DNA from: Clostridia bacterium
GTDB taxonomy: Bacteria > Bacillota > Clostridia > UBA1212 > UBA1255
NCBI GenBank assembly: GCA_016287565.1
Contig: JAEFAM010000015.1
Coordinates: 1-43,308, forward strand
Reading direction: 5' to 3'
Length of the DNA stretch: 43,308 nucleotides
The notes beneath the pieces were generated by a model, which saw nothing but the letters and a program-made list of their open reading frames with translations, was not told the origin of the DNA and did not search any database. The stretch's first letter is position 1. Each line of letters opens with the position of its first letter. Made by a program: the position numbers and the translations under genes. Shown here piece by piece: positions 3,503-9,740 of the stretch.

Positions 3503-4423
3503 ATGAGCAAACAGGCTGAAAGAGAGAAGACCGAAAGACTGGAATATGGAAGTCATGAGCGCGTTTCACCTTACGCCATCATGGCTTCTTACGGTATTTC
3601 GGCGAAAAAATCCCTGGGCCAGAATTTCCTTTCCGATCTTACTGTAGTAAAAAAAATAGTCGACGCCGCGGGCGTGGGGCCCGAGGACCTGGTGATAGAA
3701 GTGGGGCCTGGCCTGGGCGTGATGACAGAGATACTCTCCGAAAGAGCGGGACTCACGGCAGCGGTGGAGATCGACCGTGATCTGGCTCCCGCGCTGGATT
3801 CTCTCAGCCTTATGCACGACGGCCTGGAGGTCATCTACGGCGATATAATGCGCGTGAATATAGGGGAGATCATCGACCGCCTGCAGGCCGAACATCCCGA
3901 ACTCAGGCGCGTGCGCGTCGTGGCAAACCTGCCCTACTATATAACGACGCCCATCATAATGATGTTTCTGGAGCAGTACGCCTCCCGCCTCGATTCCCTG
4001 ACTTTTATGGTCCAGAAAGAAGTGGCAAGGCGCCTGGTATCGCCTCCCGGAAGCGGTGAATACGGGGCAATATCCGTGGCCGTCGCTTACTATACCGACG
4101 CCCGCATCTGTTTCGAGGTTCCGTCCTCCTGTTTCGTGCCCCGGCCCGGAGTCGATTCCGCCGTGGTCAATATGTCCGTCTACAAAGAAAGGCCTGTGGA
4201 GCCCGAAAGCCGGGACAATATGTTCAGGCTGGTCAAAGCCGCTTTCTCCCAGAGAAGGAAAATGTTCCTGAACTCCGTTGCCAACGCTTCCATCCCCGGC
4301 ATCACGAAAGAGCGCGTTTCCGAGGCGCTGGACGAACTTGGCCTGGATCAGAAGATCAGGGGCGAGATGCTGGGCGTGAAAGAGTACGCCGCGTTGTCCG
4401 ACATACTGTTTAAAAAGCAATAG
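3503..4423 (+). CDS. rsmA: 16S rRNA (adenine1518/1519-N6)-dimethyltransferase RsmA (KsgA)
   Basis: Dimethylates two adjacent adenines in the 3' terminal hairpin of 16S rRNA during late 30S assembly. Motifs in order are KKSLGQNFL (family signature), the SAM loop VIEVGPGLGVMTE, the acidic VEID, and the catalytic NLPYYITTP. The frame is open from TTG 3470, but that would start 3 bases after the upstream stop; ATG 3503 gives 306 residues, slightly longer than usual, and ATG 3581 is also possible. None of the three has a strong ribosome binding site, so the start is uncertain. It is probably co-transcribed with the 3D-domain gene (36-base gap) and followed by a terminator-like hairpin. Confidence 0.93.
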   Translation: MSKQAEREKTERLEYGSHERVSPYAIMASYGISAKKSLGQNFLSDLTVVKKIVDAAGVGPEDLVIEVGPGLGVMTEILSERAGLTAAVEIDRDLAPALDSLSLMHDGLEVIYGDIMRVNIGEIIDRLQAEHPELRRVRVVANLPYYITTPIIMMFLEQYASRLDSLTFMVQKEVARRLVSPPGSGEYGAISVAVAYYTDARICFEVPSSCFVPRPGVDSAVVNMSVYKERPVEPESRDNMFRLVKAAFSQRRKMFLNSVANASIPGITKERVSEALDELGLDQKIRGEMLGVKEYAALSDILFKKQ

Positions 4424-4463
4424 TACTTAAGTATTTAAATATTAGTAATTGCTTATTTATTGC

Positions 4464-4483
4464 CGCCTAAAATGGCGTTTTTT
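4464..4483 (+). terminator. Probable rho-independent terminator after rsmA
   Basis: CGCC (4464-4467) and GGCG (4474-4477) form a short stem around a 6-base loop, followed by six T (4478-4483) and a second T run at 4488-4493. The stem is short, so strength is uncertain. The spacer from rsmA (4424-4460) is AT-rich and starts with the palindrome TACTTAAGTA. Confidence 0.55.
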
Positions 4484-4516: not shown

Positions 4517-4545
4517 TTGACAAAACGCCTGGCGCGTGGTACAAT
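4517..4545 (+). promoter_or_regulatory. Promoter of the Tad-like operon
   Basis: TTGACA at 4517-4522, a 17-bp spacer and TACAAT at 4540-4545. It lies within the longest open frame of the ATPase gene, which shows that the start proposed from 4492 is too long. The leader to the chosen start is about 80 bases. Confidence 0.8.
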
Positions 4546-4632
4546 CAGCTCACCGTTAAAAATCAGACGCATCGAATGTGCGGCGGACATTGGAACACTT
4601 TCGCAGTAAAAAATAACGAAAGGATGATACCG

Positions 4633-5745
4633 GTGGACAGCAGGCATATTATTGATATCGTCGATAAAAATCTATCTTCCCGGATGGATCTTTCCAGAAA
4701 TTATTCGGATAAAGAGCTGAAAGAGCTGATAGACGACTGCCTCGACAGCCTGGAGAAGAGGATACCCGCCATAGGCATAGACCGGACGGATATCAGGAAC
4801 GCCATATATAACAGCAGGCGCCGGTTCGGCATCATTCAGCCTTTTCTGGACGATCCCGCGGTCAACGAGATCATGATCAACGGCACCGAGGCCGTTTTTA
4901 TAGAGCGAAGCGGATCGCTGGTAAAGACCGAGGCCCGGTTCGACGACAGGGACAAACTTTTCAATTTCATACAGACCATGATCTCCTGGGTAAACAGGAG
5001 CGTCAACGAAAGTTCTCCGATAGTAGACGCCAGGCTCACCACCGGCGCCCGCATCAACGTGGTGCTGCCTCCAGTGGCTCTGAACGGTCCCATAGTGACC
5101 ATACGTAAATTCGCCGAAAAGCCATTCGGCTGGGACGAACTCGTCGCCAACGGCACCATGACGGAGGCGCAGGCCGCCTTCCTTAAAAAGGCCGTTAGAG
5201 ATCAGAAAAATATCATAGTAGGCGGAGGCACTTCCACAGGAAAGACCACGTTCCTGAACATGCTGGCCTCTTCCATACCTCCCGAAAACCGCATAATCAC
5301 CGTGGAGGATTCGGCGGAACTGAGGCTGTTCCAGGAAAACGTTGTGAGGCTGGAGACCAGAAACGCTAATTCCGAGGGCAGGGGCGAAATAAAGATGAGA
5401 AGCCTTATAAAAGCTGCCCTTAGAATGCGCCCGGACAATATCCTGATCGGAGAGGTGAGGGACGAATCGGCTCTCGAGATGCTCACCGCACTCTGTACCG
5501 GCCACCGTGGATGTATGTCTACGGCCCACGCCAACAGTGCCGCGGATATGCTTGTAAGACTGGAGACCATGGCGCTCTGGGCAGGGAACATATCATCCGA
5601 GAGCATCCGCAAGATGATCGTGTCCGGGATCCATATATTCGTCCATCTGGTTAGAGACGAAAATGGGAGGCATGTCGGAGAGATATGCCTGGTGGACGGG
5701 ATCAGGGACGGAGAGATACGGCTTACAGACGCACGCGTTTCATAA
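4633..5745 (+). CDS. CpaF/TadA-family secretion ATPase
   Basis: Hexameric GspE-superfamily ATPase that powers assembly of type IVb (Tad/Flp) pili at the cytoplasmic face of the membrane. An N-terminal helical domain (about 1-60) is followed by the PAS-like domain containing LDDPAVNEIMINGTE and by the RecA-like core: Walker A GGGTSTGKTT, the Asp-box region ITVEDSAELRL, the Walker-B-like LIGEVRDESALEML and the His-box HRGCMSTAHAN. I chose GTG 4633 (370 residues) because GAAAGGA at 4618-4624 lies 8 bases upstream; ATG 4624 would sit on top of that site. Starts before 4545 fall within the promoter. It is the first gene of a five-gene operon with TadB, TadC, Flp1 pilin and FHA protein. Confidence 0.92.
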   Translation: MDSRHIIDIVDKNLSSRMDLSRNYSDKELKELIDDCLDSLEKRIPAIGIDRTDIRNAIYNSRRRFGIIQPFLDDPAVNEIMINGTEAVFIERSGSLVKTEARFDDRDKLFNFIQTMISWVNRSVNESSPIVDARLTTGARINVVLPPVALNGPIVTIRKFAEKPFGWDELVANGTMTEAQAAFLKKAVRDQKNIIVGGGTSTGKTTFLNMLASSIPPENRIITVEDSAELRLFQENVVRLETRNANSEGRGEIKMRSLIKAALRMRPDNILIGEVRDESALEMLTALCTGHRGCMSTAHANSAADMLVRLETMALWAGNISSESIRKMIVSGIHIFVHLVRDENGRHVGEICLVDGIRDGEIRLTDARVS

Positions 5746-5756
5746 GGAGCCCGGAA

Positions 5757-6512
5757 ATGGTCAAGGTAAACAGAACTTTTAAGCGCAAAAAATATAATTT
5801 GAACGCCGCGGCGGTATGGGGGATAACCGCAGGCGTCTGCGGCCTGGTATTTCTGTCGGCATTCGTACTGTTTACGGATACGACAGTTTCAGTGATCCTG
5901 ACTGCGGCCAGCCTCCTTCCGGTATATTCTAAAGTCAGAAAAGAATGCGAAAAAGCCTATGAAAGAACAGTGAGAAGAGAATTTGTGTCCTGCCTCGTAA
6001 CGTTATCCGGTACGCTTTCTTCCGGGGCCAGGCTGGAGCAGTGCGTCAACGAGATCGCCCTTGGCGACAGCAGCGAGATAAGGCATATCCGCCCGGAATT
6101 TCAAAGGATGGCCAAACTGATACAGCTGAATCTTCCCGTGGAAAAGGCGTTTTCCGAATTTGCAGAAAGGGTACCCGTCTCCGATATAAAACTGTTCAGC
6201 CAGGCTCTGGAATACGGCATCCCCGCCGGCGTCAATCTTATCGAACTGGTCAGATCTTTTTCCGCCGGGATGCGCATCAGGAACGACGTGGAGGCGGAGA
6301 TCACCAGGACACTTAATCTTCCAAAGTACAACAACCGGGTGGTGACCGTGATGCCCTTCGTGATGATAGCCGTGATGCGCCTCACTGCAGGAGATTACCT
6401 GGCCGGTCTGGATACGGGAGCCGGACTGACCGTGAAGGCAGTAAGCGCCGGATTGATCGTGATCGCGCTGGTGCTGGGAGAACTGCTGGGGGATATAAGA
6501 TATGCCGAATAA
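5757..6512 (+). CDS. TadB-like inner-membrane platform protein (type II secretion F domain)
   Basis: Membrane platform subunit that, with TadC, couples the ATPase to pilin extraction in Tad systems. Of the 251 residues, two membrane segments lie near the N-terminus (about 17-55), then a cytosolic helical T2SF domain (about 70-195, with LVTLSGTLSSGARLEQCV and VSDIKLFSQALEYG), then two more membrane segments at the C-terminus. ATG 5757 is preceded by AAGGAG at 5744-5749, 7 bases upstream; an earlier in-frame ATG overlaps the ATPase gene and lacks a site. It starts 11 bases after the ATPase stop and overlaps the next gene by 11 bases. Confidence 0.85.
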   Translation: MVKVNRTFKRKKYNLNAAAVWGITAGVCGLVFLSAFVLFTDTTVSVILTAASLLPVYSKVRKECEKAYERTVRREFVSCLVTLSGTLSSGARLEQCVNEIALGDSSEIRHIRPEFQRMAKLIQLNLPVEKAFSEFAERVPVSDIKLFSQALEYGIPAGVNLIELVRSFSAGMRIRNDVEAEITRTLNLPKYNNRVVTVMPFVMIAVMRLTAGDYLAGLDTGAGLTVKAVSAGLIVIALVLGELLGDIRYAE

Positions 6513-7170
6513 CAAAAGACTTTCGGAAAAAAAGAACAGGGGCCCGGCGGACAAAAAAAGTATCTTTATGACGATCACCGGTTTCGCAGCCGGGTTTGCG
6601 CTGTCCCTTGCGGCGGGCAATTCCGTCCTATTCTCCGTTTGCTGCGCGATCGCCTTTGCGGCTGTTTTCCGGTTTCTTCCCGTGTTCGCTGAAAAGAGGA
6701 AGAAGAAAAAGGAATTGAAGCTGTACGAGATCGATATGGCCGATTATCTTATCGGAGTGTCGCTGCTCATGTCCTCCGGGATGACCGTATGGGAATCGCT
6801 CAGAAGGGCCCTGGCAGGAGCGGATCTCGGCAGGCCTTTATACAGGGACATAGAAATGCTGTTCGAAGGCATCGACGCGGGAAAGTACGGAGACCCGGTG
6901 GAGGCTTTCGAAGAACTGGCTTCGGAATGCGGCTCTCCGGCTGTCAGCACACTTACCGCGGCCATCGTACAGAATTATAAAAAAGGTTCCGGTGAGATAG
7001 CGGCTCTTTTAAGAGACCTTTCGCTGACCGCCAGGAACAACAGGAAATATATCTGTATGAAGCTGGCTGACGAGGCAACCACGCTGTTGCTGATACCGTC
7101 CACGCTGATCCTGGTCGCCCTGATCGTACTGCTGGTAGCCCCTGCGGTGATGACGCTGACGGAGCTTTAA
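6502..7170 (+). CDS. TadC-like inner-membrane platform protein (type II secretion F domain)
   Basis: Second platform subunit, probable partner of the TadB-like protein. Of the 222 residues, two membrane segments lie at about 20-60, followed by a cytosolic domain with DYLIGVSLLMSSGMTVWESLRRA, typical of the T2SF/TadC fold, and a C-terminal membrane helix (about 195-218). The 11-base overlap with the upstream gene suggests translational coupling. It is shorter than many TadC proteins, but all expected segments are visible. Confidence 0.82.
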   Translation: MPNNKRLSEKKNRGPADKKSIFMTITGFAAGFALSLAAGNSVLFSVCCAIAFAAVFRFLPVFAEKRKKKKELKLYEIDMADYLIGVSLLMSSGMTVWESLRRALAGADLGRPLYRDIEMLFEGIDAGKYGDPVEAFEELASECGSPAVSTLTAAIVQNYKKGSGEIAALLRDLSLTARNNRKYICMKLADEATTLLLIPSTLILVALIVLLVAPAVMTLTEL

Positions 7171-7191
7171 AACAGAAGGATGAACGTTTTA

Positions 7192-7197
7192 TATAAT
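7192..7197 (+). promoter_or_regulatory. Possible -10 box before the pilin gene
   Basis: TATAAT at 7192-7197 lies 23 bases before the pilin start, but no good -35 hexamer is found 16-18 bases upstream. A separate pilin promoter would fit the need for more pilin than machinery; this is inference. Confidence 0.3.
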
Positions 7198-7220
7198 TCA
7201 ACGGAAGGAGGTGACAAACA

Positions 7221-7478
7221 GTGGAAAGGATCTCCGGGATAAAAAGATACGCGGACGTTATTTGCAGAAAAAGTTATATTTATTTCAAAGATCTGAAACA
7301 AAGGGTCAAGGAAAGGATCGTCAGGAGCACCGAAGGAATGGGGACGATAGAAGTCATATTGATAATCGCCGTGCTGGTGGCGCTGGCCCTCATATTCCGC
7401 ACTTTCATAGGAAACGTCTCGTCGAAGATATTTAACAAGATACAGGAAAAGACGGATTCCGCCATTGACGATCTGTAA
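7221..7478 (+). CDS. Flp1-family type IVb prepilin with a long leader
   Basis: Major pilin candidate of the Tad-like system, exported and polymerised after leader cleavage. Residues 36-54 read STEGMGTIEVILIIAVLVA, the Flp1 hallmark: Gly39 as the cleavage position, Glu44 as the +5 glutamate, then the hydrophobic polymerisation helix to about residue 58. The predicted mature pilin is about 46 residues and ends in a polar helix. The leader of 39 residues is long and basic compared with typical Flp leaders. The start is GTG 7221, with GGAGG at 7207-7211. No prepilin peptidase gene lies in the window, so processing must rely on an enzyme encoded elsewhere. Family assignment is strong; pilus formation is inferred. 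Confidence 0.85.
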   Translation: MERISGIKRYADVICRKSYIYFKDLKQRVKERIVRSTEGMGTIEVILIIAVLVALALIFRTFIGNVSSKIFNKIQEKTDSAIDDL

Positions 7479-7483
7479 ACGAA

Positions 7484-7502
7484 GGGCGTATCGCCCGATA
7501 CG
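7484..7502 (+). other. Two mutually exclusive hairpins between pilin and FHA genes
   Basis: GGGCG (7484-7488) can pair with CGCCC (7492-7496), or CGTATCG (7487-7493) with CGATACG (7496-7502). No T run follows, so this is not a standard terminator. It could protect the pilin mRNA 3' end or reduce expression of the distal gene. Confidence 0.45.
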
Positions 7503-7526
7503 TAAAAACCGGTTGCGGGTACGATT

Positions 7527-8618
7527 ATGAAACTTGAAAAAGAACGAAGCAGCATAAGGATAACTTATTTGTCCGATTCGGATCCGGAAGAGATAAGGAA
7601 AGGATTCGAAGAGCTTTGCGCCGCCGTTGACGGCATATACCTTCCTTCGGACGTTCAGAAATCCAAGGAGGGCATCGTCATCAACGTAAGGCACAGGGAA
7701 TCTCTCAAGACGTTTCTGGGCAAGAATATTTTCAGGACGGACGATTTTATCCTGCTGCTGAAGAGAATAAAAAAATATTACATTTCCGTCTCCGGGGCGG
7801 GATACGATCCCTCCGGCTGCGTCTGGGACGTGGACGCGGTTTTTATAGGCAATGGCATCGACGATACCGAGGTGATCTACCCTCTCGGAAGCAGCGAACC
7901 GAAGGACGGGTCGAACCAGCTGACGGATTTTCTGGCCATCGTCTCGTTGCACGTTTTCGACTCCCGGGACAGCGCCATAAACGCGTTGTCCGACGTGATA
8001 AGAGATTTTGCCGAATACGAAAAAAACGGTCCGGACAGGATATTTCCTCCGGCGCTGTTTGACAGGAGCGTTAATGCCCTCGAGGCTTTCGCCACGGGCT
8101 CCGGTCGCGTGCGTCAATACGTCCAGCGCGCCGCGGGTCTTATGACCGAACTGTCCGAAAGGCTCAAGAAGCAAAAGGCCGCGCTGCGCATGGGCAAAGA
8201 CAGGAAGAGGGTGTTGAAACCTTTAAGCGATCCGAAGATCAGGCCAGGCGTGCCGGGGTGGCTGGAGCAGCGGGTGGTGGGAAAGCCACGGGATCCGGGA
8301 ACGTCTCCGCCGCCCGTTCACACCGGCGAGGAAAGAAAGGAAACGTTTAGGGAAACTGTCCGGGAGGATGTCCTTTACAGGATCCCGGCAGGGCGGGAGT
8401 ATGCCGAGGAACTGTTCCGGAAACGCTGCCCTTACGTCAGCAGAGAGCACTCGACCATATGTTATAACGGCAGGATCTATACTCTGTCAGACGCCGGGTC
8501 TCTGAACGGCACGTACCTTAACGGAGAACGCATATCCAAAGGACTTTATTACAGGCTGGAGAAAGGAGACGTGGTCAGTCTGGGGCACAGGGAACTGTCC
8601 TTCTCGTTCTGCCCCTGA
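7527..8618 (+). CDS. FHA-domain protein with a DUF6382-like N-terminal region, Tad-associated
   Basis: Cytosolic protein of 363 residues. The C-terminal 75 or so residues form a forkhead-associated domain, a phosphothreonine reader: an Arg-containing segment, then SREHSTICYNG and the signature DAGSLNGTYLNGERI, ending in GDVVSLGHRELSFSF. The N-terminal region (about 1-185) resembles DUF6382, which in Clostridia is fused to FHA domains, though I judge this only by layout (LP..V....GIVINV..RESLKTFL, then a D-rich segment). A charged linker joins the two parts. No membrane segment is seen. It is last in the operon, 48 bases after the pilin gene, and may link a Ser/Thr kinase signal to pilus assembly. 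FHA call firm, N-terminal call moderate. Confidence 0.75.
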   Translation: MKLEKERSSIRITYLSDSDPEEIRKGFEELCAAVDGIYLPSDVQKSKEGIVINVRHRESLKTFLGKNIFRTDDFILLLKRIKKYYISVSGAGYDPSGCVWDVDAVFIGNGIDDTEVIYPLGSSEPKDGSNQLTDFLAIVSLHVFDSRDSAINALSDVIRDFAEYEKNGPDRIFPPALFDRSVNALEAFATGSGRVRQYVQRAAGLMTELSERLKKQKAALRMGKDRKRVLKPLSDPKIRPGVPGWLEQRVVGKPRDPGTSPPPVHTGEERKETFRETVREDVLYRIPAGREYAEELFRKRCPYVSREHSTICYNGRIYTLSDAGSLNGTYLNGERISKGLYYRLEKGDVVSLGHRELSFSFCP

Positions 8619-8659: not shown

Positions 8660-8688
8660 TTGCCCGAAAACCGGCGATGTGGTATTAT
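8660..8688 (+). promoter_or_regulatory. Promoter of mreB
   Basis: TTGCCC at 8660-8665, a 17-bp spacer and TATTAT at 8683-8688, 32 bases before the start codon. Confidence 0.65.
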
Positions 8689-8720: not shown

Positions 8721-9740
8721 ATGGGATTTTTTAAACAGAACATGGCAATAGATCTTGGCACCGCCACCGTGCTGGTGTGCGTAGGTAAAAAGGGCGTCGT
8801 CCTTAAGGAACCGTCTATCGTCGCCATTAAAAACGACACCAGGGAAGTCGTGGCCATCGGAGAAGAGGCCAGGGAGATGCTGGGAAGGACCCCCGGCGAT
8901 ATAAGCACTGTCAAACCCATCCAGAACGGCGTTATTTCGAGTTTTACCATCACCAAGAAGATGATACAGTATTTCATCGGAAAGGCGCTTAAAAACCCTC
9001 TGAAGCGCATTTTTTTGCCTGACGTGATCATATGCGTCCCCAGCAGAACTACCAACGTGGAGCGCCGGGCCGTGGAACAGGCCGCGCAGGACGCGGGAGC
9101 TCACAGAGTCTTCCTGGTGGAAGAGCCACTGGCCGCGGCGGTAGGAGCGGGACTCGACATATCGCGCCCCTCGGGCCACATGGTAGTGGACGTAGGCGGC
9201 GGCACCACCGATATCGCCGTGATCTCATATGACAGCATCATTGCCAGCAGAAGCGTAAAGGTGGCCGGCAACGACTTTGACGAGGCCATTAAGAATTATC
9301 TTAAAAGAGCCCATAATCTGATGGTGGGAGACAGCACAGCCGAGATGGTGAAGATGGAAGTGGGTTGCCTCTACGAGGGCGTCAGAAACGACTCTACCGA
9401 GGTGCACGGAAGCGATATGGTCACGGGACTGCCTTCCGAACATATAGTCACTTCTTCCGAACTTTCCGAGTCGCTGATCAGTACCGCCATGCCCATTCTG
9501 GACGGAATAAGGGCGGTGCTTGAAGAGACTCCTCCGGAACTGGCGGCGGATATATATACCAAAGGCATCCTTATGACCGGAGGCGGAGCGCTGCTCACCG
9601 GATTCGACGAATTGATCAGAAAGACCACCGGCATCGACGCCGTCGTAGCCGAAGAGCCGCAGTATTGCGTGGCAATAGGTTCCATAAGTATATTAAACCG
9701 TATGAGCAACGCTAAAAAAAGCGCCTTCGCCATCAGGTAA
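8721..9740 (+). CDS. mreB: MreB/Mbl-type bacterial actin
   Basis: Actin-like ATPase that forms membrane-bound filaments and directs the lateral wall synthesis machinery. It has 339 residues. The amphipathic N-terminus MGFFKQNM is followed by phosphate-1 motif AIDLGTATVLV, the VKPIQNGVISSF segment, the phosphate-2 motif VVDVGGGTTDIAVIS and the adenosine motif LMTGGGALLTGFDELI. It has its own promoter and is followed on the opposite strand by murC. The usual mreC and mreD genes are not adjacent, so this may be a second paralogue (Mbl- or MreBH-like); sequence alone by eye cannot separate these. Confidence 0.93.
   Translation: MGFFKQNMAIDLGTATVLVCVGKKGVVLKEPSIVAIKNDTREVVAIGEEAREMLGRTPGDISTVKPIQNGVISSFTITKKMIQYFIGKALKNPLKRIFLPDVIICVPSRTTNVERRAVEQAAQDAGAHRVFLVEEPLAAAVGAGLDISRPSGHMVVDVGGGTTDIAVISYDSIIASRSVKVAGNDFDEAIKNYLKRAHNLMVGDSTAEMVKMEVGCLYEGVRNDSTEVHGSDMVTGLPSEHIVTSSELSESLISTAMPILDGIRAVLEETPPELAADIYTKGILMTGGGALLTGFDELIRKTTGIDAVVAEEPQYCVAIGSISILNRMSNAKKSAFAIR

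Follow-up and report, generated by a model that had tools for sequence, protein, structure and literature searches.

The stretch of DNA analysed here, hereafter the window, is contig JAEFAM010000015.1 of the Clostridia bacterium assembly GCA_016287565.1 in its full length of 43,308 nucleotides (contig C79 of genome G000). The assembly is fragmented (143 contigs, 2.65 Mb) and 95.9% complete. Between a hairpin behind ksgA and the gene mreB, the window carries five genes, all on the plus strand and forming one same-strand unit, that encode a CpaF-type ATPase, the platform proteins TadB and TadC, an Flp1 prepilin and a protein with an FHA domain. We compared this unit with those of relatives (G-numbers denote genomes and L-numbers loci of relatives), among them six congeners (G001-G005 included) and the 31 genomes of the order, and conclude that it is probably one half of an ordinary gut-bacterial Tad pilus system with dispersed genes. 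The features of the locus are:

4461..4477, plus strand: terminator-like hairpin with a T run after ksgA (which ends at 4423); a pattern match only, and the likely upstream boundary of the unit
4517..4545, plus strand: sigma-70-type promoter TTGACA-N17-TACAAT, 11/12 matches, with an extended -10 (TG before the -10)
4633..5745, plus strand: cpaF/tadA assembly ATPase; frame open from 4492, GTG at 4633 the preferred start; T2SSE and TadA-family profiles
5757..6512, plus strand: tadB platform protein; open reading frame from 5685, ATG at 5757 with AAGGAG preferred; weak T2SSF match
6502..7170, plus strand: tadC platform protein; weak T2SSF match
7221..7478, plus strand: flp1 prepilin; Flp1_like, class III cleavage motif G↓MGTIE at residue 39 (about 7335)
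7527..8618, plus strand: the whole FHA gene, last of the unit
7527..8102, plus strand: N-terminal, DUF6382-like domain of the FHA protein; predicted to fold as a protein kinase, with HRD and DFG absent (AlphaFold2, VIA-align)
8103..8366, plus strand: helix and low-confidence linker of the FHA protein; residues 227-279 with a predicted local distance difference test score (pLDDT) below 50
8367..8618, plus strand: FHA domain with phosphothreonine (pThr)-binding residues G289-R290, S305, H308 and N327-G328
8721..9740, plus strand: mreB/mbl, the next gene on the same strand, with its own promoter-like site at 8660-8688; a neighbour, not a Tad part

The first product is a CpaF/VirB11-type ATPase as judged by T2SSE (E=1.2e-54) and by the NCBIfam TadA-family profile (E=2.4e-83, with a score under that profile's curated cut-off). 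The T2SSF matches of TadB and TadC were weak (E=5.7e-4 and E=1.9e-5, respectively); the two genes are adjacent and stand in the same order as in complete Tad clusters. The prepilin matched Flp1_like (E=6.2e-15) and carries a class III site with E5 (G↓MGTIE) that was present in 22/22 Flp1 sequences examined, and the FHA domain was recognised at E=2.2e-13. A stretch of 6.5 kb contains 11 promoter-like sites (shuffled sequence gives 4.8), and the promoter at 4517-4545 scored highest among them; position 4517, at which the original prediction let the unit begin, thus marks the promoter and not a codon. For CpaF, the GTG at 4633 is favoured by a ribosome-binding site and by its agreement with the relatives' MDSRHI start.

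The order CpaF-TadB-TadC-Flp1-FHA was found in 22 of the clade's 23 named loci, which with one or two exceptions come from rumen or gut metagenome-assembled genomes or similar metagenome assemblies, and in nearly all relatives examined from the same genus, family and order. Because it recurs so widely, this order is not a matter of chance. Profiles, promoter and clade-wide order together bear out the original prediction of a tight five-gene Tad/Flp1 unit that ends in an FHA protein and starts from a near-consensus promoter; the unit is conserved in related Clostridia. Within the clade the gene next after the unit is usually mreB/mbl, and a link between the pilus and cell-wall growth may be envisaged from this placement.

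Outside the clade, in Ruminiclostridium, Lachnospiraceae, Paenibacillus and others, the genes form a single cluster, TadZ-CpaF-TadB-TadC-Flp-(TadE)-DUF5702-TadE-A24, and G036, from the same class, also has a one-locus cluster. These clusters share with the window's clade the CpaF-TadB-TadC-Flp1 order, a DUF5702 protein, a TadE-like pilin and an A24 peptidase, and a DUF6382-FHA gene lies in or near several of them; they differ in keeping TadZ and the other parts together, whereas in the window's clade the parts lie apart and TadZ was not seen. In an unrooted tree of 82 CpaF sequences, the split form occupies one side of a single branch (support 100/99), and does so in 200/200 bootstrap trees. 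The simplest account is that a complete cluster was split once and that TadZ was lost from it, the direction of the change being one that we infer, as the tree is unrooted. In G007, from the same family, a CpaF of another type, 44% identical to that of the clade, stands beside TadZ in place of the clade's own (L109, G007:C42:1-2200), possibly a replacement by horizontal transfer.

No peptidase, TadZ or TadE gene lies beside the operon, as had been stated originally. G000 contains one strong T2SSE ATPase match and one strong Flp1 match, in addition to four weaker T2SSE matches under the cut-off, and with this single strong ATPase no second complete tad or competence cluster was found. A prepilin peptidase of family A24 (TadV-type) is nevertheless encoded in G000 (C66:3-290, minus strand, E=8e-8); it is unlinked to the operon and cut by the contig end, and it retains both aspartate contexts, SDVKN and GGADVK. 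Its surroundings are syntenic with those of the full-length peptidase of congener G001 (MgtE, DAHP synthase, PlsY and Der neighbours). An A24 peptidase was found in 26 of the 31 genomes of the order, among unrelated genes in those examined; as a second Tad locus this neighbourhood was dismissed, since it consists of unrelated genes that vary from genus to genus.

The relatives do have a second locus, here called locus B, which encodes a DUF5702 protein of ~700 aa (TadG-like, PF18960, E=4e-51) and a TadE-like protein of ~340 aa, often with an additional small TadE-like protein. Its TadE-like gene was present in 5/6 congeners and in 25/31 genomes of the order, and in no case did it share a contig with cpaF. 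The gene directly upstream of locus B is dnaE in the congeners with contigs long enough to show it (G002 and G004). In G000 the 4,036-bp contig C8 breaks off inside dnaE, at residue 1019 of 1151 (G000:C8:981-4034, L165), and the genes that follow dnaE in the congeners were not found in G000, apart from distant paralogues of two of them. Searches of G000 with the TadE Pfam hidden Markov model (HMM) and with the locus-B proteins gave no match, the site being an assembly gap. Because dnaE is cut at the contig end and the following genes were not found, locus B of G000 most likely lies in this gap. The original suggestion of a very reduced system, in which the other Tad genes are missing, is therefore refuted, and by the very kind of observation that the original prediction had named for this purpose: a peptidase is encoded elsewhere in G000 and TadE/TadG-like genes at the congeners' locus B, and only TadZ is unaccounted for.

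The fifth gene of the operon encodes the sole FHA domain found in G000. Among 25 aligned relatives, 19 matched the DUF6382 profile at the N-terminus and 23 matched FHA, whereas the window's protein itself matched FHA only and gave no DUF6382 match at E<=0.1. Because 19 of these relatives match DUF6382, the term 'DUF6382-like' used originally appears correct, and residues 1-192 are, as judged from the alignment, a diverged DUF6382. AlphaFold2 modelling with 25 sequences gave a pLDDT of 82.5 for the whole protein, including the disordered linker, and of 91.3 for residues 1-192 alone. With the latter model the best Foldseek matches were protein kinases (E 4e-4), and the best 50 VIA-align matches were all kinases or a pseudokinase (Z 9.7-10.6, root-mean-square deviation (rmsd) 4.2-5.5 Å over 166-180 of 192 residues), the intracellular domain of Rv3910/MviN being among them. 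The HRD and DFG motifs were absent from 26/26 sequences. A predicted kinase fold in which both motifs are absent points to a fusion of pseudokinase, linker and FHA domain as the most likely architecture of the protein. EssB was not among the structural matches listed, and no special kinship to it is claimed.

A search for a Ser/Thr kinase, proposed in the original prediction, was successful: contig C143 of G000 (L174:10110-13160) encodes a PASTA-type (PknB) kinase beside a PP2C phosphatase and RsgA, near ftsZ/ftsA, the kinase and phosphatase being identified by sequence reading and the Pkinase profile. Another gene of G000 (G000:C96:85939-86553; L129, L175), adjoining a large surface protein gene, encodes a further kinase-domain protein of ~650 aa whose C-terminal half is unusual. 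In the papers searched we found DUF6382-FHA proteins described only as components of type VII secretion systems (T7SS), and no description of an FHA link for this Clostridial Tad gene set. The original statement that such a link is undescribed for this gene set thus stands. FHA links are known from another Tad-like machine, the Kil system of Myxococcus, which comprises FHA proteins as well as a CpaF fused to an FHA domain (PMC8460266).

At its C-terminus, the TadE-like pilin of the relatives bears a domain with homology to the CdiA-CT EC869 nuclease (PF21111, E=2e-9; domain profile against the solved CdiA-CTs 4zqu and 4g6u, E=2e-11 and 3e-10, respectively). The active site of EC869 CdiA-CT consists of Glu177, Asp198, Ser209 and Lys211 (PMC9086364). 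In the window's family the Glu is replaced by Arg and the Asp by Ala or Ser, and at three loci in other families of the order the Lys is missing; all four catalytic residues are kept only in L236, a distant locus. An active nuclease at the pilus tip is disfavoured for the window's family, as catalytic residues are lost, and the domain is likely to be a catalytically dead, domesticated fold. The domain is carried at L140:8089-9129, L167-L173 and L130-L145, and also in Ruminiclostridium (L210, L213, L215, L254) and others.

Taken together, we consider it probable (about 0.82) that the operon is the motor and major-pilin half of a dispersed monoderm Tad (type IVc) pilus with a cytoplasmic pseudokinase-FHA scaffold. 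The gene content, order and synteny, the orphan peptidase, the congeners' second locus, the split within one CpaF clade and the intact FHA pocket are observations; the working of the system would be as follows. CpaF would power the TadB/TadC platform to polymerise Flp1, which would be matured at G↓MGTIE by the TadV-type peptidase encoded elsewhere, and the minor pilins of locus B (TadE-like and DUF5702/TadG-like) would initiate or cap the filament. The dead kinase lobe would dock, most likely on the motor/platform base, and organise the cytoplasmic base, with the flexible linker joining it to the pThr-competent FHA domain. A target of the PknB/PASTA-type kinase, once phosphorylated, could be bound by this domain, and pilus assembly would thereby be tied to the cell-wall or growth state.

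Several points weigh against this interpretation. The pilus of the clade is a prediction from genes, and locus B was not seen in G000 itself, its presence there resting on the congeners. TadZ gave no match in G000 at E<=0.1 with a profile built from two sequences (the genome being incomplete), and none lies beside the operon; with the same profile, TadZ was detected in most of the complete Clostridial clusters. It should be added that Micrococcus luteus has no TadZ, which is thus not present in all monoderms (PMC6916266). The kinase-fold matches concern a predicted model, with an rmsd of 4-5 Å and 3-15% identity. Two divergent relatives (L054, L116) no longer have the His and NG residues of the FHA domain, so pThr binding is not universal, and the PASTA-type kinase of C143 is only a candidate partner of the FHA protein.

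The alternative that fares best is in fact a sub-variant of the dispersed-pilus explanation, in which the FHA protein is structural only, its FHA domain binding an unphosphorylated partner and exerting no phospho-control. Such a case is known from T7SSb, where EssC FHA domains without a pThr pocket bind the EssB pseudokinase (PMC11217815), and the loss of the pocket in two relatives agrees with it. However, R290 is conserved in 25/25 sequences, S305 in 24/25, and N327 and G328 in 23/25, as expected for pThr binding, and G000 possesses a PASTA-type kinase together with PP2C; we regard a purely structural role as possible but rather unlikely. It has also to be considered that the FHA protein belongs functionally to a T7SS, as a TseJ/TsfJ/TsjJ-like component whose place behind the Tad genes is incidental. 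DUF6382-FHA proteins are indeed components of T7SSe, f and j (PMC11217815), whose single chain likewise begins with DUF6382 and ends with FHA, and most of the aligned relatives match DUF6382. But TseJ, TsfJ and TsjJ lie in T7SS loci, whereas the window's gene follows flp1 in a strand-continuous unit across the clade, has Tad genes and mreB as neighbours and occurs in or beside complete Tad clusters elsewhere; moreover, T7SSe/f/j ATPases bear FHA domains, while G000 has no second one. This makes a T7SS role very improbable. A truly minimal secretion or filament system, in which the ATPase, two platform proteins, pilin and FHA regulator suffice, could point to the five-gene order, which across the clade has no TadZ, peptidase or minor-pilin gene in its vicinity, and to the negative TadE and locus-B searches of G000, but in its strict form it is refuted and otherwise hardly credible, given the orphan peptidase in the same genome, the congeners' locus B whose G000 site is an assembly gap, and the precedent of a monoderm Tad with an unlinked peptidase (PMC6916266).

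The dispersed pilus proposed here finds its closest counterparts in the monoderm Tad pili of Bifidobacterium breve and M. luteus, which likewise have one CpaF, a TadB/TadC pair, an Flp pilin and TadE-like minor pilins and need no secretin; in B. breve the peptidase is also encoded at another locus (PMC6916266). The window's clade differs from them in that the minor-pilin genes too are at a separate locus, no TadZ was found and a DUF6382-FHA gene is part of the operon. Multi-locus Tad systems have been called very rare (PMC6668835). The Kil system, another Tad-like machine, likewise includes FHA proteins and has its genes divided between two regions, but it is diderm, has a secretin and an FHA domain fused to its CpaF-type ATPase, and is used to kill prey (PMC8460266). 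The pairing of a dead kinase fold with an FHA domain resembles EssB/YukC and EssC of T7SSb (PMC11217815) and, in Mycobacterium tuberculosis, the MviN pseudokinase and the FHA domain of FhaA under PknB control (PMC12599244); TraF of pIP501 resembles the pseudokinase only, as a hub in an envelope machine (PMC13037476). In contrast to all of these, the window's protein, encoded in a pilus operon, unites both modules in a single chain that is apparently soluble. The likeness is one of fold, and sequence homology is not claimed.

Two elements of this analysis are new, namely the reading of the fifth gene as a pseudokinase-FHA fusion and the degenerate CdiA-EC869-like fold on the relatives' TadE-like pilin. 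In a wider and tentative sense, DUF6382-FHA might serve as a cytoplasmic hub common to envelope machines of Bacillota (Tad pili and T7SSe/f/j; compare EssB-EssC and TraF of the type IV secretion system), and in the window's clade, where TadZ has apparently been lost, it might act as the scaffold coupling the pilus motor to Ser/Thr phosphorylation, with a toxin-derived, degenerate nuclease fold carried at the pilus tip. A false 'minimal secretion system' is replaced by a probable clade-wide dispersed Tad pilus, DUF6382 gains a predicted fold and a testable role, and the degenerate CdiA-like domain on the minor pilin would represent a toxin-type fold borne by a pilus component. It has been asked what holds the monoderm Tad assembly complex together, and whether TadZ and TadG replace PilM-PilN-PilO (PMC6916266); a clade in which TadZ is not seen and the motor operon encodes a pseudokinase-FHA protein would offer a direct way to test this question.

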